DNA of 54,472 nucleotides from positions 90,080 to 144,551 of the forward strand of contig KL197757.1 in the NCBI GenBank assembly GCA_000697665.1, given 5' to 3'. Origin of the DNA: Jaapia argillacea MUCL 33604 (lineage: Eukaryota; Basidiomycota; Agaricomycetes; Jaapiales; Jaapiaceae). Position numbers and translations under genes: made by a program. This document shows positions 10,694 to 53,250 of this stretch, piece by piece. Position 1 is the stretch's first letter. Each line of letters begins with the position of its first letter. The notes below the pieces were generated by a model, which worked only from the letters and a program-made list of their open reading frames with translations, ran no database searches and was not told where the DNA came from.

Positions 10694-12565
10694 ATGTTCT
10701 GTTAGTGAATGCGGCATATTCCATAAAATATCCTGCAATGTTGGATGTATGGTATTCAATGATGTGTGTGGATTTTTCAATTGTCTTCTTTTTAATAATC
10801 ATATTCTTCCATTTGCAGGATCACTAGGTGGAGCCCATGTATCATACAAGAAAAACTCACGTGTTTCTTTTGTAGTATCTATAGAGTATTGTTTGTATCC
10901 CATTTCATTTATTCTATCTCGTTGTATATTTCTTGCAGTAATAATAGAAACATGTCGAAAGTCCCTGTTTCCCATGTTAGGGTTTTGAAATTTCGACCTG
11001 CTACCCTTGTTTGTAGTAAATTGATATCATCTTGTGTGCATGACTTATACCTCATATTTTCCAATGCAGTTCTAAAAGCTTGGTCATTAGCAGATTGTGA
11101 TCTTTGTCTCATGTTTTTTCTAAGTATCACAACTGTTGTTACTTGGTGCCAAAGTGCTTTACCAATTGTGGCTTCTTATTGATGCATATTCATTTGTTGA
11201 TTGAGTTTAGTGGAGACTGTTTCCTGAATATAGTGCATGTTCAGCTCCTACTGGTGGTAGTTGGGCAAAGTCACCAGCAAATATCATATTCATCCCACCA
11301 AATGGTTCAAAAAAATTATCAAAGGCCATTGCAAGGTGATGGCTTATATTATATAAGGCTTCACAAGATAACATGGATATCTCATCAATGAATATGTATT
11401 TCACACCTTCCAGATGTTCCTTCAAGTCATTGATGGTATATTGGGTCACTTTGCTCCCTTGTCTTATTCCTAACATTGAGTGATAAGTTGATCCATCAAT
11501 AATCGCAGCAGCTGACCCTGTAGGTGCCAATACTACAAATTTATACTTCTCTTCACAAGTTGTGAAAAAATGAAGTAATGCTTTAATAACTTGTGACTTT
11601 CCAGTACCGCCCATACCTCCCAAATGCATGTTCAACTGTTCATTATTCTTTTCTGTTACATGATTTGCAACTATTCTAAAGGCTCGTTCTTGTTCTTCAT
11701 TGAGACTAAATTCAGATACAATGGAATCTATAATATATTGGTCATTTTTGTTTGACACCTTGTAAGATTTTGTTAAAAACAATGATTTAACAATTCTGAC
11801 ATCATTTGGTGTTAATCCTGGTTACTTTGTTGCCGTACCTATTGTAGACGGAGCATCAGAGTTTTGTACGGTACTTTGTTGTTGTATTGCTTTTGCTCTT
11901 TCTGCAAGTACCTCAGCTTTTTTTTGTGATAAAACAGATGCCCAATTAGTGGAGGAGTTGTTCTCTACAGAACCACCATGGTCAATTTCAGTATCATTGA
12001 AACGACCTGAATTCCATCCAGCCAATTTCAATACATTTTGTATGTGGTTCATGTCTTGCATCTGATTCCATGCATGCTTACCATAGCTTTCTTGAGACAG
12101 TTATCCATCATCATTAGTTGTAAATAAATCAGTATATGTGTTAATTTCCATGTCAAAGTCCATTTCATTTCCAGAATCAGATTCATCAAAAAATTTAGAT
12201 GGCTTGCCATTAAGCTTACGTCTTTGTGCCGAGAAATCATCTCTAGCATCATTACACTCATATCTGACATTAAAATATTTCATAAGTTCTTGCTGTCTAT
12301 CTGTGAAGTTGTAATTGTTGAATACTGATTTCCATTGTTGTGTCTCTAATTTCAGATCTTTGCCAGATCTCCAAGGTTTGAACAATGTTAGCATTACACT
12401 GGAAGAGAATTCTTTACTTCCTTTATCACTTCTTGGAAGACTTCCACCAACAAAATTTGGTATTAATGCATCACATTCTGGTCTGAGAAAGGCATAATGT
12501 GAATTGTACTGTGGGTGATCTTGAAGAAACTGTGGAGGTGAACTAGGATGGTTGTGCCCTTCCAA
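10694..12565 (-). pseudogene. Helitron linker and Pif1-family helicase domain
   Basis: The linker (12565-12101) contains IPNFVGGSLPRSDKG, MLTLFKPWRSGKDLK and YFNVRYECNDARDDFSAQ, which are conserved between Rep and helicase in Helitrons. The helicase follows with LNEEQERAFRIVANHV, Walker A GGMGGTGKSQVIKAL, Walker B YIFIDEISMLS and a later motif MIFAGDFAQLPPVG (11782-11207). A block FRTALENMRYKSC and then FRHVSIITARNIQRDEINRMG continues to WNMPHSLTEH at about 10705. The final VPGMPV-type helicase motifs are absent. The enzyme would unwind DNA during rolling-circle transposition. Stops near 12101 and 11822 (both TAA) and at the 11207 region interrupt it, although one frame is kept from 12565 to 11207. 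Confidence 0.8.
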
Positions 12566-14172
12566 TTGACATTCACCTCCATATTGAAGCTCATAATTTT
12601 AATGTCATTATCATCATCTTCTTCATCTCTATTTTGAGGATTATTGGGGATTTTTTCCTTTTGATAAAATTGCATCCAGTCGTACAATGAACATGCTTCA
12701 TATATCAACGGTCGGAAGATGTAGTCCATCACAAGTGAAATTCCAATATATTCTTCATTGGATCTCTGAATTACTATTCGTTCTTTTTCCAATGCAGATG
12801 GCATATCTTCATCATTATTTTCACCTGATGATGTTGACATATAATGATAGTCTTTCAATGCTTCTTTCAAAAATGATTTCCAATAAAAAGTTTTAAATTT
12901 GCAATTTGTATAATGGTCCTTCTTTCCCATAAGAAACAAGGCAGCCATCAGTGCTCCTATTTCCATTTTGACAGTAAATGCATTGGTTATTTTTGTTAAT
13001 AAGTGTCTTCCTCTTTCAATTGGATCCAATGTCCCATTAAGAAACTCACTCTTTCTCTCCACTATGTTTTTGACTACATCAAACATTACATGAGTTTTCA
13101 GAGATGACTTTGTTATGTAATCAGTTACATAAGCTATGACAGCTTTCACTGCAGTTCTACTGAGAAGACATGTAACATCCGAATTGCATCTTAGTAAAAA
13201 TGTCACAACAGGGCTGAAGAAGTTTATGTATGGTTCCAATTTTTTCATATTGATGTGACCTGTTTCTTTGTCAACAGATGAAGTTTCATGTACTTCTCGT
13301 GGAAATCTAGCTTTACATGTTGCATCAGATTTTACTTCTTTACACCACCCAATTTGACAAATATGTCTGTTGAGATGATATACCAGATGATTTACTGTGT
13401 TTTTGAAAGCTGCCATCCAATTGTTTGTTTTTGTACATTGAGAACACCCCATGCATTGTCTTTTTTTACACTCTACTGGAGGTTTTATTGGAAACAAATA
13501 GGCTTCTGAGGGAACATCAGGTTCTTTTTCTGTATCCATTTCATTAGAGTTAAGTTCATGTTTCATATTATAGTTTTTTGACTTAACTTTGTGGGCAACT
13601 TCGTTCATTGTTGCATCCAAGAATACTCCCATGTGAGAATTTTCTAGATAGTCAATCATTGCTTTTTCAAAATCATTGTCACGACTCATTAGTTTATCTC
13701 TGATTTCTTGAGGGGTAAGAGTATTTGTAATCCACAATAGCAGGTGAAGGTGTAAAGTTAGGTGACCTTGCTGTTCAATAGTACCATAGTAAGCAGCAGT
13801 TTCACCATATACTCCTTCTTGTACTGAATCGACTCCAAGTATATGACGGATAAAGAGGTTTACTGCAAAGTCAAAAAAATGTGCACCTGCAACAGGATTC
13901 TGTATGAGTAGTTTACGGCACTCGTCTTTCATTGGGATTCAAATTGGGAAATTTTCTTTTGTTGAAGCAAAGTATAACGAGATAGGGTAGGATGTATCTC
14001 TGGGAGTGAAAGTTATAAACCAATTTGGAGCACCTCTATAAGCAATAACAGACCATATCTCATTTCGACTATGTTGTTTGCTTGTATTAGATCCTGGAAT
14101 TTGTTGAGCAATAATGTTGACATCATGAATAACTGCAAAACACAATTTTTCAGCATCTGTTTGAGGTATCAC
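12463..14172 (-). pseudogene. Helitron Rep domain (HUH endonuclease)
   Basis: The first part (14172-13939) holds IWSVIAYRGAPNWFITFTPR, the start of the Helitron Rep domain. An in-frame TGA (13941-13939) separates it from the 489-residue part (13932-12463), which begins MKDECRKLLIQNPVAGAHFF. In that part the metal-binding HUH pair is H61/H63 in LHLHLLLW. A Cys-rich insertion CKKRQCMGCSQC lies at 155-166, and the two nicking tyrosines Y268 and Y272 are in AYVTDYITK. All core catalytic residues are therefore present. The domain nicks the element end and joins it to the target. It overlaps the linker ORF by about 100 bp in another frame, which marks a frameshift near 12560. Confidence 0.85.
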
Positions 14173-14460
14173 CTTTCACCATGCTTTAGTCTCCTCACTA
14201 GAGTTTTGTTTGCTTGCTGTTAAAAAACCTGCTGTTGTACACTGCTTGATTTGTTCATGGTGCAATGCTAATAGAGGCTACTGAGGTTCCAGTTGAAATC
14301 GTTTGTCATAATACATTAATAGATGCTGCTTCTGCTTCAGTTCAGAAATGTTTCTTATTATTTGCTGATTACAGAGACCACCTAAACCATATGGGAATAA
14401 CCATGGGAACATTTGAGGATATAATTGAGGATTGTTATATATGGATTGCATTTCATTATC

Positions 14461-15856
14461 TCACGATATTGCTAAAACCATTCCATTATTTTGTAGGTGT
14501 CGAAGACCTGTTGCTTTCAGTGTATTGACTGACATTCCTGCATATTCCTCACCAGAAATACCATGTACTGCAAATGGACAATTTCCTTCATCAAAACCTT
14601 CTTCTTCATCGATATTGTGTGTTGAAGTTGACTCAGGATCTATATTATTATCTTGAGTTTTGTATTGAATGGGAACAGGGATTTCATCATTGACATATTC
14701 ATCCATATTTTCATGTGATATCTCTAGATCAGCATAGTCTATATGGTTTAACTTTAACCATTCAAGTGCATTCATCACTTTGTTTTGTCTCACTAGCAAA
14801 GGAATTCGTTTTAAATCATCCTTAGTGGGTTTGTGAGGCCCAGTGAAAATAATTGCTAAGATCTCTTCCAGATCTTTTTTCGGTGGAGGTAAATGTTTAT
14901 AAATTTTTGCAGAAGGATTAGTAAATATTATAGCATTCACTTTCATTTTGTAACCCCCTCAACCCATCGATACTCTGGTGATGTAGTTGTTTGTCGAAGC
15001 TCTTGATATAAGAAGTCGTTCTGCCCATGTTAAGTTTTGAGCACTTCGGGTACATCACCAATCCACATTCCATCGGCCAATGACAACTTAGGTATCTTAT
15101 TCTGCTTCAACTCTTCTTCACAATCTTTGCATACTTTGGCACATTTTGATGCTACTATTGGTCCTGTAAATTCTTCAATTGGATCAGATGAGGATTTTCT
15201 TTCCTTTCTTGTAATATCTTCTCCAGGTTGAGCTAGAATATTCCAATCAATGTCTAACAAAGTTTCAGATGTTAATTGAGTGCCAATGGTTAGTCTTCCA
15301 CAAACTTTACAACCCCTTTCTTCATAGTAACTTGGTTCTAAGTTATCACAGTACTGTCTGACAATTTCTCTTAAGTGACTGTCTTCCAAAGGTTTGGGTG
15401 GAAACTTGTTACCATCATTAATGATATTTGCAGAGATTGTTGGCATGTCTGTAGGGTACACTGGCAGATTTTTTTGAGGTTCTTTTTTTTTGACTGTCTG
15501 TGTCTTTTTTTTTTCTCATGAGGTTCAAAAATAGTGATATACAATGTACATATCCAACACCAATGAAAGTCAAATGTTCGTTGATTGATGTTATGTGGTC
15601 CCCTCAGATTATAAGTCAAATTTTCATGTAAGTCAGAGATTTTCTTAAGTTCTCCTTTTGGTAAAAAATCAAGGAGTGAACTGGCTCGAAGTTGACAAAA
15701 TACTACTCTCATATTTGTAGGGTATTTTTTGATGGCAATCTCATAAGGAAGATAATCAAGAAAACAGAAATACTCATGTTCAAAGTCATGAATGAAATGG
15801 TGATTCCCTAGTCGTGTATTGTGTTGACCCCCTGTGTAACTTTGATGGTCCTTCAA
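14461..15856 (-). pseudogene. Helitron N-terminal region
   Basis: This region has three pieces. Piece 15856-15371 reads YPTNMRVVFCQLRASSLLDF. Piece 15461-15030 has a Cys pair CKVCGRL, a second pair CAKVCKDC and the conserved end LSLADGMWIGDVPEVL, which is typical of the zinc-binding N-terminal part of fungal Helitron proteins. Piece 14946-14461 reads MKVNAIIFTNPSAK and NALEWLKLNHIDYADLEIS, the region that precedes Rep. The pieces are in different frames, so the copy carries frameshifts or introns. A poly-T run at 15476-15515 lies at one of the breaks. Confidence 0.7.
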
Positions 15857-22113: not shown

Positions 22114-23336
22114 TCATCTTCTGACAATGTAACAACACTTTTTATATGGCATGAACAGATAAGAGGCGACACATTGCAGACTTTCCTCAATTGAGATAAA
22201 ATTGACTGTTACAAATCTGTTATATAATCTCCAGCAGATGTCATAATGATAACTTACCTGGACACTGTCTGGTCTTTCAATGAATATATTCCATTCATGG
22301 ATGCAAGGTACTGCAAGCATAAACCATGGAATACAGAGCCTATTGCTAAATGTCACTTTGATTGACTCAACTCCTTGACCTATATTGTGTAACATCCTTT
22401 GCAAATCTAGACCAAGACAGATGATGGATTGTAATTCCCCATGCAACATGGTTGATCAACGTGATTGGGATGTGGATATGAGCGAGCTTCAAAGGAAGCA
22501 CCATTTGAGTAAGATTTGGTATAGGTCAATTGATGGAAGAATATGACTCGATTGTGAATGATTGTAGATTCTGAAGTGTCAAGAGGAACAATGCAAAAGC
22601 ATCCCATGGAGGTTCAATGTGGGCAATGTTGAGTGATGTCAGGTTGAAAGGAATATGTGATGAAGTTTGTGGTTCATCTTGGAGATATGCAATGAGGAAA
22701 CTTGTAAAGTTACATATGAGAGGTGACGGCACATGTTTTTTGCCAACTGTGGACATGGAGAGACTTTGAAGGGAATGCCAAGGTATGGCACCCAACATTG
22801 CTTTCAAGGTGTGATCATCATCTTGTGCAAGTCAATATTTTGCTGCGATATACAGATGCTTTAGAGTTGTCTTTTTTGTAAAGGTAACAGAGGTAGTGTG
22901 TGTGTTGTGGAAGCCCATATAAACCTGAATGACGTAAGAGCTGATCTCTCCTTGTTGGAACCACAGGAACTGTTATAGGATGTTCATTTATGCTGTAAAG
23001 AGAGCTGAATCTTGTCAATTTAACCTGCTTCAATTGGAAAGGATCACACACCTTTCCCTGCGTTTCAGTACCTTCAAAAATGGTAAATTTCCAGCAATCT
23101 GAAGAATATCCCATATAAAGTCGGGATGTGCATCTGAGATATCGAGCTCGGTTAAGTTTATGGCAAGCTTCAAGATTTGAATTGCATATCCTCCAGGATG
23201 ACATGGCATAGCATAGTTGTGAAGGTGAATAGTGTCAATGATGTTGGGATTGTGAATAGATGCAATGTAGTGGGCTCTCATTTGATCAGAATCGATAATG
23301 AGGTCACTGATCTGTGCAGGCATGATGGCAAAATAC

Positions 23337-23413
23337 TGTTGTCAAGGGTTCAGCGCAGGGGCCTGATAACTTGACTATCAACTGTGGAGCCTGGCAGTCA
23401 AGGTGATCACACA
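23337..23413 (-). repeat. Remnant of the Copia 3' LTR (77 bp)
   Basis: This stretch matches 24621-24699 with a few substitutions and a 2-bp indel, and then runs straight into the gag-protease frame. The sharp loss of similarity marks the inner deletion breakpoint. Confidence 0.8.
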
Positions 23414-24543
23414 GTAGCCCGTTGTCCATTCACCATCGTGTAGCCAGAAACTGTGCCAGTACCCAAGTAACTGATCGATGTTTTAGCCTTGTCCGCCAAA
23501 TGAACCACCAAAGGCGAACATAGGGGCATGTAGTCGGATAAGTTGGAGATGTTGGGCATCATATGCTCAGTGCAACCTGAATTGAGCATCCAGGCATGGG
23601 TATCACTCAAGCCACACCAGAAAGAAGTGACATTGGCAACCTGAGCCTCACCAGTGATGGTGGCAACAGCAGGCATGGTAGCAGTGTTTACAGTGGGTGT
23701 AGATGATGAATTTCCCCTCCCCCCTCCTCCTCCTCGATCTCCTTGGTCCTTCTGCTTCTTCCTGCACTCGTTCTCCCAATTTCCATCCTTCTTGCAGTAA
23801 TGACACTTGCCAGGTTTCTTCTTCCCTTTGTCCTTCAATCTGGATGCGGAGGTAGTGACAACAGCGGCAGAAGGGTTGGACTTGCGATGGGCTTCCTCAG
23901 AAATGATCTTCTGGCGAATAGCAGCTGGCTCAAGTGCACTGGCTTTGATGACCATGAGGATAGCATTGACAATGTTGGAGTATGAGTCAGGTAAAGCGAG
24001 TAGCATGACAAATGCGAAGTACATGTCGTTGACGATTAAACCACCAGCAGCGATGTCCTGCTTCAGCTTGGTGAGATTATCCAACTGAACACTCATGGGT
24101 TCTGACTTGGTGAGAGTGAATCAGAAGAGCTGCTGGAACTTTAAAAAGATTTGAAGTGCACTGCCCTTGTGGAAGAGTGTCGAAAGAGCGGTCCAGAGCA
24201 AGTGGGATGGTTTGTCGTAGTCAATGAGGTAGTAGAGTGATTCATGTAAGAGGATGGCGAGTGTGGAGAGTGCTCGCCCATCGGCTTCAGTGAAGGCATC
24301 CTTATCAGCTTGAGTGGCAGAAGAGGTAAGTTTGACTGAGTCGTGGTTGATGATGTATGGCCACAACTTGTTAAGTGTGAGATAGGCATGAGTGGTGACG
24401 GCCCAAGTAGGGTAGTTGGTACCATCAAGCTTCATGATAGAAGAGATGGGGATGGGTGACGAACTGGAGGATGTGGACAACATGGCGGGTGGTGAGGGTG
24501 TAGGTGTGGTTGACCTTGTAGTCAGTTGGCTAGTACTGGACAT
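23407..24543 (-). pseudogene. Copia Gag (UBN2-type) with start of protease
   Basis: The protein starts at 24543 with a Ser/Thr-rich leader, then LDGTNYPTWAVTTHAYLT and ADGRALSTLAILLHESLYYL, the usual Copia Gag (UBN2) core. A single TGA at 24123-24121 interrupts the frame, which then continues as FTLTKSEPMSVQLDNLTKLK and LLALPDSYSNIVNAIL. The zinc knuckle reads CHYCKKDGNWENEC, with Asn in place of the usual His. The protease active site reads WMLNSGCTEHM, with Asn in place of the catalytic Asp. The frame ends at the deletion breakpoint after GYTMVNGQRAT. The nonsense codon and both changed residues make it inactive. Confidence 0.85.
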
Positions 24544-24620
24544 GCAAGAGGTTGGTCAGATATGACTGATGGAGTGATCGGAGGTCGAGCTGTTACAGGC
24601 GAGCACTGGGGCTCATAACC

Positions 24621-25081
24621 TGTTGTCGAGGGTTCAGTGCAGGGGCCTGATAACACTCGACTATCAACCGTGGAGCCTGGCAGTCAAGGCAATCACACAG
24701 GATAGGACCTAGTAAGTGTACAAGTGTTAGGTCCTCAGTAGCGCAGGAAAGACTGTATTGGTATACCTAGTAAGTGTACAAGTGTTAGGCTAGGTAATGA
24801 TCATCAGGATTGTAATACATTGTAAGGAACACAACGAGTGATTTACTCCTCAGTAGTGCAGAAAATACTGAGAAGCTGTACAGGCAAGACAGGTCTTATA
24901 TACTGGAAGGAACGTGGCAGTGCCAAGCAGTGCAAAGGCAGGTACAACAATAACAAGGGAAAGGCAGTCCATATGCAGTACAAAGTATGGGAAGGAATGG
25001 CAGTGTGTGGAAGAATGAAAAAGTCCAAAACGGAACAACGGAACAATGAACCAATGGCAAGGAAGCTATTCCTCAACAACA
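24621..25081 (-). repeat. Copia 5' LTR (461 bp)
   Basis: Reading on the minus strand it starts TGTTGTTG and ends GACAACA. Its outer end abuts the target duplication AATAC and its inner end abuts the primer-binding-site-like sequence. It contains two copies of a CCTAGTAAGTGTACAAGTGTTAGG-type unit (near 24708-24735 and 24764-24790, plus strand). Confidence 0.85.
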
Positions 25082-32795: not shown

Positions 32796-34602
32796 TCAGC
32801 CAAGGGACTGGGCCTCCTCCAACAGTGATATGTCGCTGTCATCATCGTCACCATAGTTGACCCATTCACCCATAGGGTCGTCTACACCAGTTGAATGAGA
32901 CACTTCATTCGACCGGTTCCCTTGGATCGATGTCAAAGCAACCAGGGTGATGTTAGAACTAGGAGCTTCGGTACCCTGACGAGTAGAATGCTGGAGAGCG
33001 TTCCGAGTCTGAGCAGTAGCACGATGGTTATAGAACTGTGTGAACATAGCGGCTTGACCCAATGTGATTCCCAAGTCATTCCAATACTCGAGTACGTTGT
33101 CTGGGGAGGACGGATCGCCACAGAATTGGGCGATAACAAAGTCTTCCACACATGGGTTCGCTTGACAGTAATTAGCGAACGTGCCAGGGGTCCACATAAT
33201 GCTGAGGGTATTGGTAGTGAACAACTGATGCTCCTCCCTTGTCAGGTGATCGGTGGCCTGGTTGATCCACAGCCACACCTGAATCATGTTGTTCTGGTCG
33301 ACGCTACTCTCCAAGGGTATGCCAAGAGGCCTTTCTCCTGGAGACTGCTTGAAGTAGGCCAACCATTCGCGTACGTCATTGAAGTTATCAGGTCGGGTAA
33401 ATGGGATGGGACGGACAATGTCAGCGTCATTGTTATGACTGATTGCCGTACGACGGGCTGAGTCTTGATGGGCTTGAGTTGTTGACTCACTGGAAAAATC
33501 ATATCGTAACCCTCCCCTGGTAGAACGATTTCCATGGGTGGAGGTAGGTTGGGATGCACGATTACAATCATCAACCGCCGTAGTACCTTCGACATGTCGA
33601 CGCTCATTAGTCAACGCCAGTTCTGCTGTGTTATGACGCCCAGACTGCTGGTCGCCACTATTCGCAGTGGGAAGGGTGGAGGCTGGGTTGGGAATGTGGG
33701 TAGTACCTTCTGGGGCACGAACATCACCTTCCTGATTGGCGACGGCCTCAGAGTTGCCCCATCCTTCCGTATCACTCAGCTCCCAACCGTAATTGGGAGG
33801 TTGGGCTGGTTCGCTGGAGCCCCAGCCACCAGTCGAAGATGAGTCATTAAGCGGTTCGACAGTGTTGCTGCCAGAGGCTGCAGCCAACGTCTGGTTCCCT
33901 CCTCATCATCCTCGATAAGGCCGACGGGGTCCGTAACCTCGTCGATTTGAGAAACGATTCAGATGGTCTAACTGACCCTGCAAGTACGCCAATTCTCCAG
34001 TGCCTGTGGTGATGCGAGCCTGGGCCTCATCGAGGCAGTGCTGAGCCTCAGCCAGGGCGGTATTGGCTTGTAGGTTAGCAGCCTCCCTTTCACGGGCTTC
34101 TGCTTCCAACTCGGCTATTCGAGCCACTAATCCCTGAGCACGAACCTCATTTGCAGCTGCCTGAGCTTCGAGGCAGGCCATAGTGGCTTGTAACTCGTGA
34201 AGAGCATCGGATGAGGACTGGATGGCCTCAGCTTGAGTGTCAACGTGTGTGCAGAATCAAGCTTTGTCAGTGATCCTGTGAGTGAAATATCAACTGCAGA
34301 TAGAGCAGTTCTCGTGTAATGGGACTCTGAATATCTGGCTGTAAATCCAAGCTGACTGACCCTGGGCACTGAGCTCGTGCACCCGATTTGATCGAGACAA
34401 TCCCTCCCCACGGTCGTGGTGAGCAGAACAGGAACAACTTTCAGACTTGGAAATGTACAAACTAGTAGGAATGGAGCGATCGTACTCCTCAGAACTTGGG
34501 GACGGTCCCCTTTCGCTACGTTGACTGGCCCCGTGGTGGGTCCTAGAACAAGAACGAGGAGAACAGGAAAGATGGCGCTTCTTGCCATACCTGTCTTTTG
34601 CC
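32796..34602 (-). pseudogene. Accessory ORF (ORF3) downstream of Gypsy integrase
   Basis: One frame runs from 34602 to 32796, interrupted only by TGA codons at 34292-34290, 34259-34257 and the tandem pair at 33908-33903. The start reads MAKDRYGKKRHLSCSPRSCS (basic, Ser-rich). A long Ala/Glu-rich coiled coil follows, including LEAQAAANEV and LVARIAELEAEAREREAANL (34200-33950). After that come an Arg/Gly-rich linker, a disordered region with repeated W-G and W-N motifs, and a folded-looking C-terminal part. That part reads FTRPDNFNDVREWLAYFKQS, then LFTTNTLSIMWTPGTFANYC, then YWNDLGITLGQAAMFTQFYN. I know the C-terminal pattern from many Agaricomycete hypothetical proteins next to Gypsy elements. 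The coiled coil plus a helical, capsid-like part suggests a structural (Gag-like) role. That is inference. Confidence 0.55.
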
Positions 34603-34760
34603 ATATCAGAAATTAAGAGAATGTAAAGGCAATGGGACAGTAGAGAATTAATAGGAAAATCATCAGCCCAGGCAGTCAAAACAGAATAGAGAGAGAGAGA
34701 GAGTTTGGTATGCACACATATCAAGTTCCGGAACTGTACAGTATTTGTCATTGTGGGATC

Positions 34761-36056
34761 TTAGCCTTTTAAGGTAACAGCCTTTTTTGGCAGTCCCAAG
34801 GCTGAGGCAACACCGCAGAGGGTAAGGTAGTCATCCAGGGCTTGAAGCTCATCGCAATTAATCAGAGGCTCCCATGTTTCATTGCCATAAGTCCAATGCA
34901 TGAGCAGCTGTACTTTCCCTCTTGTCCAACAGTGGCCAGCTATTTCCTCAACCATCCACTGAGTGTCATCGTCATTCCTGAAGTCATAAAATACTTTAGT
35001 CTCCCAGTGAGGGAACATGACTTTGTCATTATTCTCATGCCTCCATAGCCGGCTGACATGGAATGTAGGGTGAATACATTGAGACTTAAGGGCATCTGGC
35101 AGCTCCAACGTATAAGTAGACTCGCTGGGGTTCGCCTTAAGGATCTTATACAGCCCTACGAATTTGGGCATGAGTTTCCTGGCTCTCCCCTTTGGAAGTG
35201 ACAAATTCTTGGTGGATAGGAATGCTAAATCCCCTTCGATAAACAGTTCGTTGGGTCTAAGCCGTTTATTGGCGTGGTAGGCCTGATTGACTCGGCTTTC
35301 CAGAATAGTGTCGTGTGCCTTGGCCAAATTTTCCAATGCTTTAATAGCAAAATCCTTTACTCTGGGCATGACGGTGATGGGGTTAAGTTGTCAAATCATG
35401 GACAGCATCGGTCCAACTAATTTGAATGGCACAAATCCCGTAGTCCGGCTGACACTGGAATTCATAGCGAACTCGATTAACGGGACCTTCTCGATCCAAT
35501 CCAGTTGATCGGGTTGGACCAATGAACGCATGACCTGATTGACAGTGCGGATAGCCCGTTCAGAAGATCCGTCGGTCTGGGGGTGAAACACCGTGGACAT
35601 CAATTGCTTCGTTCCTAATAGTCAATGGAGTTCTCTCCAGAATCGTGATGTGAATTTGCTGTCACGATCGGACACGATAGAGTCAGGAATACCATGATGT
35701 CGAACATATCTATCAAGATATATCCAAGCCAGTTCGGATGCCGTAACTGTTGTCAACACTGGTATGAGATGAACCATGGCTGTCAAATGGCAGATAATAA
35801 CCCACTAATAGTCGAAGCCCCCTGATGGAGGAAAAGGCCCTACGAAATCCATCCCAATCAAACCCCAAGGCCAGGTAGGTATAGGGAGTGAATGAAGCTT
35901 CCCCATGGGCTTCTGGTTCCCCGTTTTCGTGGTAGCACACATGTTACAAGTATCACAGTATTTTTCGACCATGGTGGCTAGCTTAGGCCACCAATACCAT
36001 CTGCGAATATACTCCGAGGTCTTGAAACACCCCAGATGACCGAGAATTATTATTTG
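34761..36056 (-). pseudogene. Gypsy integrase with chromodomain
   Basis: The N-terminal zinc-binding domain reads GHLGCFKTSEYIRRWYWWPK followed by YCDTCNMC (HHCC type). The catalytic core has the first Asp in GLIGMDFVGPFPP, the second in IVSDRDSKFTSRFW, and the Glu in HPQTDGSSERAIRTVNQ, so the DDE triad is present. The C-terminal part includes KLMPKFVGLYKILKANPSES and the chromodomain, VEEIAGHCWTRGKVQLL then WTYGNETWEPLINCDEL. Three in-frame stops occur: TAG at 35807-35805, TGA at 35624-35622 and TGA at 35393-35391. The frame is otherwise intact. The enzyme would insert cDNA into the genome. Confidence 0.9.
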
Positions 36057-36563
36057 TGTTGTGAACGCGTTCGAACTTGTATATTTCCTTTTGTATTGTT
36101 TGTATTTTCACTGGACTTCATTCGCTTTCGTATCATTTCCCTTGTCTATGATACTTAGTACGACTCACCTCTATCTTATCTTATCTCAAATCCTGTACAG
36201 CCTCGTACAGCCTCGCCATTGTTCTCCATCTCATTGTTCGTCCCTCATTGTACTTTATCATTGTCTCAAACTTTAACTCGCTCGCCATTGTCTGGAGGCA
36301 TTGTCTCACTCGTTATTGTCTACAGTACATTGTTCGATATTCCATTGTTCCTGTAGTATATAAAGACACCTACCTACTTTGTATTCGGTAGCTTGTCCAC
36401 TTGAACAATACAGCGCTTTAGTTGTACCCTTCAACCGGTTCGCTCCTCCCTCGTCATCCTCTACTCTTCAACGTCGTAGCCTGAGTACCAGTTAGCAAGA
36501 AGTATCCAAAAGACTTACAAGCCTTATTCGCTACCTTACGCAAACGCTAAGGCGCTCATAACA
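36057..36563 (+). mobile_element. Solo LTR 3 (507 bp), target duplication ATTTG
   Basis: It begins TGTTGTGAACGCG and ends GCTCATAACA, with ATTTG at 36052-36056 and 36564-36568. It belongs to the same family as solo LTRs 1 and 2 but is 55 bp shorter and more diverged, with the largest difference in the GATA-rich U3 segment. It is nested in the Gypsy element, in the opposite orientation, at the junction where RT/RNase H is missing. Confidence 0.92.
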
Positions 36564-39500
36564 ATTTGTGGTAGATGATGATGGGTGAACTTTTGTGGAC
36601 TCTTCAAAAAAGAAGCTCCCCGATGAAGGTTCACTCTGACCTGTCTGTCGATGCAGAAAATACTCATCCGTAACTTCTTCCACCGTAGTTTTGCGAGTCT
36701 TTGTGGGTGGTGGATTGTCGCCCACGGCCTCGCTTCACCTCGGGTTATTCCTTTGACAAGAAACCGGCTTCTTGTGACTGATGCCCTTTCCTAGACCTGA
36801 TGTGGGTTCAGGAGACAGCTCTCTGGTAGACTGAAATGTAGCACCAGCATCAAACTTCCGACCATGATGATTGCCCTGAGGACCCTCTCCCCCGTTAAAT
36901 AGGGAGACAGGAGTAGATCCCGATTTCAATGTTCTGTGTTTAAAATCCAATGAGACTCCCATTTTGCGCATGAAAGCAGCACCAAGTACCGCGTTGTATT
37001 GGTCAATGTTGACAATGTCAAAGTAATGTCGTATTGTGTTATGACCGAACATGATCTCAGCTGTGGTACCAAACTGAATCGTGGACCGGCTACCCACGCA
37101 TCCCAACTGCAATGGCACCAGAGTTTCCAGCTCCGAAACTGGGATGCCCGATAGGGTCACGAAGGTTGGACTGAGAGAGTCTGTAGTGCTCCCTGAGTCA
37201 AGTAATGCAAATGCTGACACTCCTCCAATATCCATGTTGCAGCACATTACTTCCTTGGTGGGACGACTCATGTTTGGTCGGGTGATTTTCCCATCTAACT
37301 TATGCATACGCGCTCTGGTCACCATTTCCTGTATTGGGGAAGGCTTCATAGTGAACATAGCGGGTTTGACTGACCCAAACTGAGGTACTGAATCCTCGTC
37401 TGATGAGTCAGACACCTCCTGAAGTTCAGGTAGCCTGTTGAACTGGTCTACCTGTTCACCGTCTGATTCTACTACTCTCATGGCACTAAGCCTGACCGAG
37501 CACGCCAACCTCGAGTAATCCGATCCGTAACGGTTATAGTAATCAGATGGACTTGACGAATTGTAGGATGTATTCAGGTAGTCCTGCCTAGAGGAAGACT
37601 GTTCGTTGCCTCGTCAACTGAACCGTGACCGGTCTGAGTCTGACTGTTCACCACGATGATCACTACGACGGTTATATCCAGTGTCCGTAGGCAGCAGTTG
37701 ATCTGTTGAAGGTCCTGAATCCCCAGTTGTAGTAGGCTCCGTGGATGGCTCCTCTACGTTAGCAGCTCATAGTTGAGCATCTCGCCAAGGGGAGGGACAT
37801 TGCCTCTGCATATGACCCTTTTTACCACAATTGTAGCAAGTGACATCCGCCGATGCATTCACTTGATAAGGCCGGGATTCATTAGCTTGGGGAGCCCTGG
37901 CAGGCCTTCTTCCATCACCATGCCGGTCGTAACCCAAAGGTCTGTCATCCCTTTGGTGATCAACTCTCTCACGTCGCTGGTCATCCTGTTTAGATGAACA
38001 GTAGCCTTTAGACTTGTAGTAAGACAAAGGTCGGTTGTCTCGGCCTCTCGAGTCATGATTACTGCGTTTTCGTCGAGGAGAGTGATCTCATGTATCCCTT
38101 TGATTGTCATGGGTTCGGTCTCTGTGATCGTCCCGATAATAGTTGTGAGAATCTCAGTCCTTTGTGCGTCTATTAGACGAGGATTTACCCTCGCCCTGCC
38201 TAGCGCCATTGAGCTGCCTCTGCCTAGCCATGAACTTAAGAGAGGTCTCCATCTCGATTGCCTCGCGATACATGGCCTCAGAGGACATGAACTCAGCATT
38301 GACTCCTCGATTCTTCATCAACAGGTCCCTGATCTCCTCAGGGATCCCAGCCAAGAATTCCCTATGGAATGTATAGTCATTGGGGGCGACCACCATGCGA
38401 CCAGCATTGTGACGAAGAGCATTATAGTACATGGCCACACCGGTTTCTGAGCTGAATTTGCAGCCAAGGAACTTATGGACAGCTTCCTGAGCTGTAGCTT
38501 TGTGCAAGAATCGAGTGTGCAAGGCGCAGACAACTCTTTCGAAATTCAAATCTCGATTGTAATAATTGGGTGTATCAATTTCATAGTTAAACCACGAGAG
38601 GGCTTGTTTACGAAGGAACTGTCCCAAGAAGTCCACTCTGGTGCAATTGTATTGATCGCCAGTTAGTCCTTGCATCGACATCCATCATAACAGGAACTGG
38701 AACCAATTTTCAAACTTCTCAACATCGTCCTCACCTTTCCAATGATAGGGAGCAGGGGTTTTGACACCCTTCGGCAAAGGTTGGCTGGGCTGGCTGTGAT
38801 TAAGCCATTCTCAAATCATCACCCTGATCCGTGTCAAGGATTCTTCCTCATAACCATCAGGGTGGTCCACAATCGCAGTAGGATTTAGGTACGTATGAGG
38901 AGTACTGGAGTAAGCATGGCTCATTCTATTGGGTCTCAGACGTCGTGATGCTGAGCTCATCAGGTCATTCCCAAGGTCAAACCTAACGTTAGAAGGGCTG
39001 TAAGACGGCCCTCCACAAGGTTGATCATCATTGTGGGATGAATCATCGTCATCATTTTGTGGAGGGACAGGGGGTCCACCCCCGTCAGGGGGCCCACCTC
39101 CTCCACTGGGAGGCCTTCTGCTTCCTCCAGGAGGTCCAGTCCCAAGTCCACCAGGAGCTCCTCCTCCTGATCTGTCTTTGGTTGGAGGAGGACCACTCCT
39201 ATTTGAGTTACCATCATTCGATCCGTGGTTGCTAGGCAGCGGCCTTCGACTGTCACAGTCATCAGAGTTAAAACAATGGTGACTGGAATCCGCACTACTG
39301 TTACTAGAACCGGGAGGAGGAGGAGGAGCAGGAGGAGCTCCTCCTCTCCCACCATTACCTCCGCTTCCTGAGGCAATAGGAGGGGATCATTGATCACGAG
39401 AACTGGGAGGACGAGCAGGAACAGGAGGCACTCCTCCTCTCACCCCATCATTTCCACCTCTTGATGCAATAGGGGGGGAGCATAGACCCTGCGAGATTGC

Positions 39501-41081
39501 AGGTGGTGCATCACTAATTCTCTTAGTCCCAAAGGGATTGGTAGGAGCAGTCCTCTGTGGTTCTCTAAGCATCCTAACCAAAGGATCATCCTTACTTGTA
39601 TGAACTGGTGGGACTTCTGCTCGATAGTAATCGTAATGCGGAACCTCGGGTCCCTTACCCTTGTCTTTGGATGGGTTCTCTCGCCCACCCTCGTATCCTT
39701 CGTCGTGAGAGGGAACAGTGTCGAATTGAGTAGTATATTTTCGTATGGGGTTTGGAAGGATCCAGTAAACTGGTCTCGAATCACCACTGGCTCTTTCGCA
39801 GCAAACTGATGTGGGGGTCCGTCTCTAGCGAACCCTCCACTATTGGGTAATTTGGGTAGCCCAGGTGGCCCTGAAAGCCCTCTTCTACCATTCGCGAATT
39901 GATGGGAAACTGGCCGCGGGGCTAACCCAGGAGGAACAGCAGGTAACATGCCTCCATCATCGTTCATTCTAGGGACAGTTTCTTCGACATGATGACCTCA
40001 CTCTATGAATGGCGTTGACTGAACTCGAGCCATGTTTCTTTGACATGATGACCTCGCTCTATGAATGGCGTTGACTGAACTGAGCCATTCTTTGAGCTGC
40101 TGCTCAGCAACATTCGTATTCCAACGCGCTTTCGTTCGGCAGACGATGATCATCGCCCAAGCGCGATACCGAAGCCATTATGTTGGCGTCGGTAGTATCA
40201 GGTCCCGGGAATGGGGTTTCAGGCACCCAAACAGTACCTTCCGCCCTCCCAGAAGCACGGTCAATGAGGAATGAACAAGGCGAAGCACTGCTGTCCTTAG
40301 ACGGAACCCTAGATACGGGGCCTGCCAGTAGGGACTCAATGCTAGGTGCAGGGGATGGGATGACAGCATAACCACTGCCACTCCCCGTAGCGTACGAGAA
40401 TACGCTCGATACATTGTTCTGACCAGACAGAACGAACTCAGTAGCGTCCAGCTTGACCTGGAGAGCTCTGTTCAACTGGTGATACTCAGCCCACATTCTG
40501 GCCAACTTCGATTGCAATTCTACACTCACCTTAGTAACTTGAACTAGGGCTCCTGCGATCTCATCCATGAACACGGCCAAGTCTTGATCAACTTTCACCC
40601 AACGATCGGTGGACCACTTTCACAGCTTGTTCAGCGCGAACATTCCAGCCTCGGCATTGGTATCGACCGAAGACAGATGCTTCGATGAGGCAACCATACT
40701 AGGGTGTCGAGATCCCGTTGCTCCCACTGATGGGATACGAGGGTCCACAAGCATGGATATTCTGGGAGATGGGCCTCTCCCAAATAACTCAGGTCCCAGT
40801 ATGTTCAAAGGGTGCTCACCGAAAGACATGCCCTCTTGTTGGGCAGGGAATACCGCTCCCTGATCACCACTAGGCATTACCAACTGATCATCGTCAGTGT
40901 CATCGCCTGACCGTTGTGGGGAACCCAATCCGCCTACTAGCGGAATCGCACCATTATACCGTTTCGACTGTAACTCCATCGAATCAAGTATACGACATCC
41001 CATCTCTTTGGATCGAGTTGAACTCACCTGTTTCATACGATTTCGGACCCGACATCCCATTCCCTCACTCCTGACAACCAC
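36564..41081 (-). pseudogene. Gypsy Gag and aspartic protease, one frame with TGA stops
   Basis: Downstream of a poorly conserved N-terminal part (41081-40104), a Pro/Gly-rich low-complexity region fills 39950-39050. The capsid-like Gag core follows: YHWKGEDDVEKFENWFQFLL, DRVDFLGQFL-like sequence, LRKQALSWFNYEIDTPNYYN and GCKFSSETGVAMYYNALRHN. A zinc knuckle CYNCGKKGHMQRQC lies at about 37830-37790. The protease reads DIGGVSAFALLDSGSTTDSL with the catalytic DSG motif, then YNAVLGAAFMRKMGVSLDF. In this single frame, TGA stops lie at plus-strand positions 40620, 40104, 39387, 38811, 38685, 38154, 38088, 37767 and 37614 (lowest base given). One TAG (40059) sits in a 56-bp tandem duplication, and a frame change lies near 39800. 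Confidence 0.88.
39985..40096. repeat. 56-bp tandem duplication inside gag
   Basis: GACATGATGACCTC followed by CTATGAATGGCGTTGACTGA appears from 39986 and again 56 bp later from 40042, with few differences. Since 56 is not a multiple of three, the duplication shifts the gag frame. A second frame change near 39800 brings it back. Confidence 0.75.
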
Positions 41082-51605: not shown

Positions 51606-53250
51606 TTGTCTGGCAACCACCACCACCAAACTTATTCCCACAGTCTAAAAACACTAGTGAGGTTGATACAGTATTACAAGGACTATGGAAATCGAGGGTG
51701 GGTACCCCCCGTTCTTGATCCTGCTGCTATAATACATCCCAGTGGACCACCTATGAACCCAAGTTCTGAAACAGGACGCCGGAAATGACAACTACCACCA
51801 GCAACCCTGACCAAATCACGCATACAATGAAATTCAATGCCGTCATTAGACAAAAGCAAATGGCAGAGAGTTGCTCCATCCCATAACATATCTCCAACTC
51901 GACGCTCCACAAGTACTACGATGTGTGATCTTGATGGAGAAGATGAGGGGGAGGAATTGGACCTGGAGGACAAAGAGGCAGGAGAATTCGAGTTCAATAA
52001 GGCAACCATGGAAGATATGACCAGATGAGTCGCATACAACATTGACAAAGAGGGGAGATTCTGCACAACAAGGAATGCACTCAAGAGTGCAATCCTGGCT
52101 ACAGGGAACATCTTGATGCACAAAATCTGGCCCAAAGATATCCAAGATCTCACAAAGCGAGTCTTCAACCAAATCTGCAGTGCAACACAGGCAGAAACAA
52201 GCAACTTACCAAAGAAAGTGAAAGCTCCTACAGTGACCTCTGTCTCAGATGGAGATAGGCTATCAGCGATAGAACAAATGCTTGAGGGACTCATTAGCAA
52301 GTTTGAGACCTTCACCAGAGCACAGGACAACAGTCAAACCCACTGAACAACAGAAGTTCCACTGTCAAGGGGCAATACTTCCATGCTACCAAAGAATGTG
52401 ATTGCAAAAGGGCCCATCATCACGCCCACTCTGAAACCAACCACTTGAGCAGCCAACACTAAAGCTGCTGGACCTACATCTATGACACCAGCGCCTATAC
52501 CAACTCTGAAAACTCCACGATCTCTATACCATCCATCCCGACTCATTGTCATAGTGAAGGATGGCATTGATGCAAGACAACAACCACTGGAACTTAATGC
52601 AGTCCAAGAGATTAACCAGAGACTACAGGCTCACCCTGAGGCTAGACACCTCTGGGTAGTGGCAGTAAAATACAACCCAAACAATGTCACCATTGTTAAC
52701 ACATGGATCGACCAGTCAGCCACTGACCTAGCCAGATACTTCCCTCTATTCGCAGACATTCTCAATGTTGGGGGCACAGCGAGATGTTTTGTCAACGAGA
52801 AGTGGCACAAGGTCCAGATCCACAGGATTGATACTGGAAATCGCAAGAGCAGGATTCGTTCAGCCAAAGAAGTATATGCAGAACTCGTAGACAACAACCC
52901 AGAGCTAGGTGGAATGGAACTTGTTGTCCCACTGCAATGGATGAAGCCTGAACACGACCTCCAAGGTTCAGACTACTTATTGGTAGTACTCACACCGAAA
53001 CATGAGAATGACGTGAAACTCCTGAAGGAGCAGGGGAGCCTAGCTGCCTTTGGTAAGCACTGCCTAATCCGAACCCATGCTGATAAGCCTCCCGTCCTCC
53101 AGTGTTCGAAATGCTGGAAGATTGGCCATCACGTGTCTCGATGCTGCAATGAAGTTCAATGCAGATTGTGTGGCAAAAACCATGCTAAGAAGGACCATAC
53201 TGGTGCAATGAGACAAGGGACAGAGGACTGTTACAAACCACGCCTCAGTA
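51606..53250 (+). pseudogene. Non-LTR retrotransposon (LINE) ORF1 with zinc knuckles
   Basis: One frame runs from 51606 to about 53250, interrupted only by TGA codons at 51786, 51828, 52026, 52344 and 52446. Contexts such as MEDMTR-stop-VAYNIDKEGR fit lost arginines. The N-terminal part is acidic (DLDGEDEGEELDLEDKEAGE). A helical segment LSAIEQMLEGLISKFETFTR follows, then a folded RNA-binding-type core, HLWVVAVKYNPNNVTIVNTW and GTARCFVNEKWHKVQIHRID. The end has zinc knuckles CSKCWKIGHHVSRC and CRLCGKNHAKKDH. This is typical of ORF1 of fungal Tad-like LINEs, which binds the element RNA. ORF2 (endonuclease and reverse transcriptase) is absent because the sequence changes to an unrelated repeat at about 53250. 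Confidence 0.8.

Follow-up and report, generated by a model that had tools for sequence, protein, structure and literature searches.

Premature TGA codons point to CpG-directed decay of a Gypsy element in the basidiomycete Jaapia argillacea

We analyzed a stretch of 54,472 nucleotides from Jaapia argillacea MUCL 33604, a wood-inhabiting fungus of an early-branching Agaricomycete lineage (assembly GCA_000697665.1, contig KL197757.1, positions 90,080 to 144,551 of the forward strand; this whole stretch is the window). The window carries a Gypsy element on the - strand (Table 1) whose frames are interrupted by stop codons that are almost all TGA, which an initial annotation had attributed to mutation of arginine CGA codons at CpG sites. 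Its gag-protease (gag-pro) frame extends past 40914 at one end and to 36735 at the other. Besides the CCHC knuckle, the window copy shows a Tf2-type SH3 domain and a weak match to the integrase core (E=0.0025, below its cut-off), and the protease was called by eye from its DSGS motif. Reverse transcriptase and RNase H were identified in another copy (L016; L numbers denote loci of the same genome, and C2, C4 and C5 are contigs). When the window and L016 are combined, the parts follow the Ty3/Gypsy order of CCHC gag, protease, reverse transcriptase, RNase H and integrase. Contrary to the initial view that the frames are otherwise intact, the window copy lacks some 2 kb that hold reverse transcriptase and RNase H elsewhere; the roughly 510 bp that replace them (- strand) are unexplained sequence. 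No direct repeat of at least 40 bases that could mark long terminal repeats was found in 9 kb of the copy on contig C4 (L013), a stretch that may not span the element. Open reading frame 3 (ORF3) gave no Pfam match over its open stretch in the window, and relatives of it are present in several further copies (L026-L031).

Table 1. Features of the window, with the premature stops found in them
Feature	Position	Strand	Remarks
Gypsy gag-protease frame	36735..40914	-	CCHC knuckle, aspartic protease DSGS; 10 premature TGA
gag-pro TGA codon starts	40622, 40106, 40000 (shifted frame), 39389, 38813, 38687, 38156, 38090, 37769, 37616	-	
55/56-bp tandem duplication	40034..40088	-	contains TAG 40061; shifts frame
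gag-pro/pol junction TGA	36735..36737	-	invariant across copies
Site of missing reverse transcriptase/RNase H	36050..36560	-	~510 bp other DNA; L013, L014, L015 have ~2 kb here
Integrase and C-terminal SH3-like domain	34761..36047	-	TGA 35624, 35393; TAG 35807
ORF3, downstream of integrase	32796..34604	-	TGA 34292, 34259, 33908, 33905, 32798
LINE ORF1	51606..53250	+	five TGA: 51786, 51828, 52026, 52344, 52446
Copia gag region	23161..24660	-	one TGA (24123) within Pfam match
Helitron-like N domain and DUF6570 readings	12466..15087	-	each Pfam match holds one TGA (13941, 14961)

We recounted the premature stops in each frame of the Gypsy element. The nine TGA that had been reported for gag-pro were all found, in frame 0, as was the single TAG inside the tandem duplication. 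Because of the duplication, coding continues one base out of frame as far as 39763, at which point a difference of one base brings the frame back; frame-0 stops between 40033 and 39764 were therefore excluded, and a tenth TGA, overlooked initially, is read in frame 1 of this shifted stretch. The four TGA of ORF3 (34604 to ~32798), with no other stop, were likewise seen, and a fifth (32798), which is a sense codon in a relative, closes the open stretch. The two TGA and one TAG of the integrase were missing from the initial list of stops. This TAG (35805-35807, - strand) is unexplained by a CpG change and corresponds to a leucine codon in L014 and L015. In total, the element contains 16 premature TGA and 2 TAG, with the ORF3-closing TGA left out. 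This count departs from the TGA share of 0.52 that prevails in the window (P=1.1e-3) and from the share of 0.38 expected if C>T and G>A were equally frequent at the C4 copy's CGA, CAA, CAG and TGG codons (P=1.4e-5). The contrast is nonetheless weaker than it looks, because TGA outnumbers each of the other stop triplets in the window anyway, at 52% of all stop triplets on both strands; on base composition only, TA-poor DNA of this kind would produce an excess of TGA.

To separate mutation from composition, we compared the window with copies found by searches of its own genome. Relatives of gag-pro lie at L013 (C4; 85% identity) and at L014, L015 and L016 (72-73%), while L007 is part of the L016 copy and the shorter, more distant L006 and L008-L010 were left out of the counts. 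ORF3 has relatives at L026 (91%), L028 (the ORF3 of the C4 copy; 87%) and L029-L031 (73%). The C4 copy, which is without most of the integrase, has CGA at 8 of the 10 gag-pro TGA sites, the exceptions being one shared TGA and one other codon, and at all 4 ORF3 sites; codons other than CGA, which would have spoken against a CpG origin, are thus the minority in this relative. Across the five gag-pro copies we counted 45 premature stops, 44 TGA and one TAG, leaving out the junction codon, duplicated codons and gapped codons. These stops occupy 33 different positions. At 32 the stop is TGA (P=1.3e-8 for a TGA share of 0.52), and 28 of these 32 have CGA in another copy, compared with only 54 of 1,428 codons at which any copy has CGA. 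With these numbers, base composition as the sole cause is refuted for the Gypsy element, and we give it practically no credence. In the four pol copies there were 16 stops, of which 14 were TGA and the other two a TAG and a TAA; the gag-pro total already includes one of these TGA, and part of the pol stretch of L013 lies in a shifted frame. At many sites CGA, TGA and CAA alternate between copies, the pattern that a single CpG would give when hit on one strand or the other, and this swapping among copies led us to reject a change of the genetic code. We conclude that the excess of TGA is real and that CpG mutation explains most of it. At two gag-pro codons (homologous to 37991 and 37280), TGA is common to L014, L015 and L016; these may be inherited stops or parallel CpG hits.

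The differences between copies show the same context beyond stop codons. CpG changes make up 76-86% of the differing sites in four close pairs: 152/177 between the window copy and L026, 231/276 in L014/L016, 267/338 in L014/L015 and 254/335 in L015/L016, where the last three pairs overlap in their copies and do not count as independent. Calculated per cytosine and lineage, change at CpG was faster than transition at other cytosines by factors of 23.1, 19.4, 15.7 and 12.2, respectively (bootstrap intervals between 8 and 38), so that the equal rates named initially as grounds for refutation were not observed; in the older pair of window copy and L013 the ratio is only 2.6. The CpG change per cytosine is alike in the four close pairs (0.19-0.23), despite their differing non-CpG divergence. 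The proposed CpG rather than CpA context also held: non-CpG transitions at CpA, CpC and CpT number 5, 7 and 5 between the window copy and L026 and 55, 60 and 27 summed over the L014-L016 pairs, with no preference for CpA over CpC in either set. A preference for TCG was rejected, with 204 of 910 TCG sites changed versus 148 of 440 CCG sites (totals of eight non-independent directed comparisons); among the close pairs, CCG was changed somewhat more often. The TG and CA products form no significant runs by strand in ten directed tests (p_low 0.08-0.93), so that a burst on one strand was not seen. Judged by these comparisons of copies, the initial CpG interpretation is supported for the Gypsy element.

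We then considered when the changes arose. Among L014, L015 and L016, CpG changes are spread flat over codon positions (0.38, 0.36 and 0.40 in L014/L016; chi-square p 0.42-0.67 in the three pairs), as are non-CpG changes (p 0.10-0.41), which indicates that these three close copies decayed after insertion with no selection in evidence. Between the window copy and L013 and between the window copy and L014, CpG and other changes are both biased to third positions, and the deeper divergence between copies accordingly arose while the elements still worked.

CpG content was compared between elements and genes, as had been proposed initially. The CpG observed/expected ratio (o/e) stands at 0.63 for gag-pro, 0.66 for ORF3 and 0.36 for LINE ORF1, as compared with 0.94 in seven pooled host exons, six of which lie at 0.89-1.12. 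Three of four sampled loci lie at 0.85-0.91, with less than half of two loci covered. In the window outside the Gypsy element the ratio is 0.31, and the Gypsy insertion is therefore less decayed than its flanking DNA.

The genome also contains candidate enzymes for CpG methylation, with DNA methylase matches at at least three places, on C4, C5 and C2. The C4 locus matches PDB 7r76 (named Rad8 there; E=2.2e-85), which we take to be Cryptococcus DNMT5. The loci on C5 and C2 match DNMT1 best and each have an RFD match 2.4-2.6 kb upstream, and we infer that the catalytic and RFD matches form one gene at each place. From these matches, the genome looks to encode two DNMT1-RFD-like enzymes and one DNMT5-like enzyme, a set that resembles the basidiomycete CpG set in the relevant part of a review (PMC13297926). 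By nearest solved relative, none of the three loci is of the RID type, in a search that gives a lower bound. The second half of L039 (C2), the 3' part of a DNMT1-like gene, is CpG-poor (o/e per 600 bases of 0.77, 0.71, 0.39, 0.18 and 0.32), as if the methylation gene itself were decaying or adjoined a repeat.

We consider CpG methylation by DNMT1-RFD and DNMT5, followed by deamination, the best mechanism for the decay of the element, at a probability of roughly 0.7. Inserted copies would be methylated at CpG by these maintenance enzymes, and 5-methylcytosine would turn into thymine on either strand, one CpG at a time, over many generations. A hit on the coding strand would convert CGA (Arg) into TGA (stop) and one on the other strand would convert CGA into CAA (Gln), while one CpG change would yield neither TAA nor TAG. 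Spontaneous deamination rather than an active enzyme would presumably make the change. Passive deamination fits the CpG context, the mixing of strands, the lack of selection and the predicted enzymes. An unlikely though serious competitor is a process resembling repeat-induced point mutation (RIP), triggered by repeats and specific to CpG, that would actively mutate duplicated DNA, for example before meiosis, through a DNMT1-family enzyme. The high CpG/non-CpG ratios of 12 to 23 in the four close pairs and the similar CpG change per cytosine at varying non-CpG divergence speak for such a process, and passages of the Rhizoctonia solani and Tricholoma matsutake papers consider a RIP-like reading (PMC4014442, PMC6980582), whereas the lack of one-strand runs makes a single round unlikely and the three methylase loci found, in a search that gives lower bounds, look like DNMT1 or DNMT5 rather than RID. 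Spread over repeated rounds, a CpG-directed RIP-like process would look almost identical in the sequence, and the strand test argues against a single-round burst only.

Several observations weigh against methylation followed by passive deamination. The CpG effect in mammals is roughly tenfold, and the ratios of 12-23 found here look higher. Because CpG changes between the window copy and L013 are biased to third positions, some of the CpG loss must have happened before the window copy died. One host exon, in a DNMT1-like gene, is CpG-poor (o/e 0.45), as is L022, the fourth of the sampled loci (0.39). The RFD matches lie barely above the family cut-off (25.1 and 24.4 versus 22 bits). At the ORF3 TGA sites, L026 has CGA at 2 of 5, a shared TGA at 2 and another codon at 1, so that CGA is absent at three; in L029-L031 (73%), CGA stands at only 1 of 10 comparable sites, weaker than claimed. 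None of the two integrase TGA sites is CGA in relatives that are ~75% alike, and only one of the five LINE sites is CGA in a relative (76%). The direct evidence for CGA therefore comes from gag-pro, together with ORF3 as seen in the C4 copy.

One in-frame TGA behaves differently from the others. The TGA at 36737 is present in all five copies, inside an exactly shared 14-base motif at the gag-pro/pol junction. In a pattern search of the genome this motif is intact at these five places, with a sixth at one mismatch and one match for the reversed control. The frame after this TGA is still coding, as variable columns by codon position (12/54, 4/53 and 26/53; p=5e-6) indicate, and the first ATG after it lies at a different place in each of the four pol-bearing copies. 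Together, these patterns suggest that the junction TGA is probably a programmed stop rather than decay, and that Pol is probably made by bypass of this UGA. An intron spanning the junction is a less likely alternative; the database gene models P0001 and P0002, read by eye, skip the junction region with different joints. RNA folding after the TGA gave a similar small stem in three copies, with energies that barely beat shuffles (z -0.4 to -1.5), and we therefore claim no recoding structure. Its invariance, with coding sequence on both sides, is also what favors the broader idea that all of these TGA are functional codons, decoded as an amino acid or bypassed by readthrough, an idea we regard as very improbable, as the other TGA vary between copies, alternating with CGA and CAA, and no selection is visible in the three close copies.

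A counterpart of the junction is found in Tca2 of Candida albicans, which is a Ty1/copia element and in this differs from the Gypsy element here. In both, an in-frame UGA divides gag and pol (PMC2194720), a likeness that concerns the junction TGA only; in the parts of that paper covered, the Tca2 flanking sequence alone gave no readthrough in Saccharomyces cerevisiae. If the element needs the host to pass a UGA for Pol and host CpG mutation makes only UGA stops, mutated copies could still yield small amounts of full-length Gag-Pol and keep transposing, a suggestion we regard as a long shot. Were it true, the two TGA common to L014-L016 would have been passed on from a mobile master copy instead of arising by parallel hits.

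Other mobile frames of the window are also interrupted by TGA. LINE ORF1 has the five TGA reported initially and no other stop in its frame, and when both LINE copies are taken, the stops in this frame are nine TGA and nothing else. For the Copia gag, the one TGA reported lies in the Pfam-supported part, with eight more outside it. The TGA in the Helitron-like and DUF6570 readings were missing from the initial list, while the Harbinger transposase and the PHD-like gene named there were not located. Stretches interrupted by a single kind of stop numbered 60 for TGA, 16 for TAA and 9 for TAG, a count that we did not use as proof because many of these stretches are out of frame.

In Neurospora-type RIP, which acts on duplications before meiosis, one round gives strand-polarised changes. 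This polarity was not seen in the ten directed tests. The C-to-T mutation of repeats is common to both, while the CpA preference and, in a search that gives lower bounds, the RID of Neurospora-type RIP were not seen in Jaapia, as judged against the passages covered (PMC4014442, PMC4352252). Copies and genome show two features of basidiomycete CpG-type decay, namely C>T changes concentrated at CpG without CpA preference and candidate loci of the DNMT1-RFD type. A close known system is the CpG-biased hypermutation of the Agaricomycete R. solani AG8, where a CpG-to-TpG excess is likewise found and TGA is stated as the primary nonsense product (PMC4014442). It was described there from heterozygous single nucleotide polymorphisms between nuclei that affect genes and repeats alike, in contrast to the element copies in one assembly compared here and to the normal CpG content kept by six of seven sampled host exons in Jaapia. 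Amselem 2015 reported for the basidiomycetes of that study a CpG-only transposon signature together with a class IIA (Masc2-type) Dnmt1 and proposed methyl-cytosine deamination (PMC4352252). Signature and Masc2-type Dnmt1 are as in Jaapia; the two rusts and Microbotryum in the covered part of that study have one Dnmt1 each, as opposed to two DNMT1-like loci and a DNMT5-like locus here. In T. matsutake, repeats of another Agaricomycete show CpG bias with two masc2 copies and no rid or dim2, and the passages covered hold no premature-stop analysis (PMC6980582). In Heterobasidion parviporum a CpG-to-TpG bias was related by the authors to TGA as the commonest stop, with the difference that population polymorphisms and gene stops rather than transposon decay are concerned (PMC5870257). 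As far as covered, these works leave the choice between passive deamination and RIP-like defence in basidiomycetes open (PMC4014442, PMC6980582, PMC5870257).

The process is therefore one already described in related fungi, of which Jaapia is a strong new and well-resolved example; among the matches listed, which are no proof of absence, we found no paper on CpG decay in Jaapia. Our findings provide a clean and quantified case of CpG-directed transposon decay in this fungus, and they show how the mutational context can be read from which stop codons appear prematurely. They also carry the warning that an in-frame TGA in such elements is not always decay, as the junction TGA probably belongs to Pol expression. 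The Jaapia Gypsy copies are good targets for methylation sequencing.

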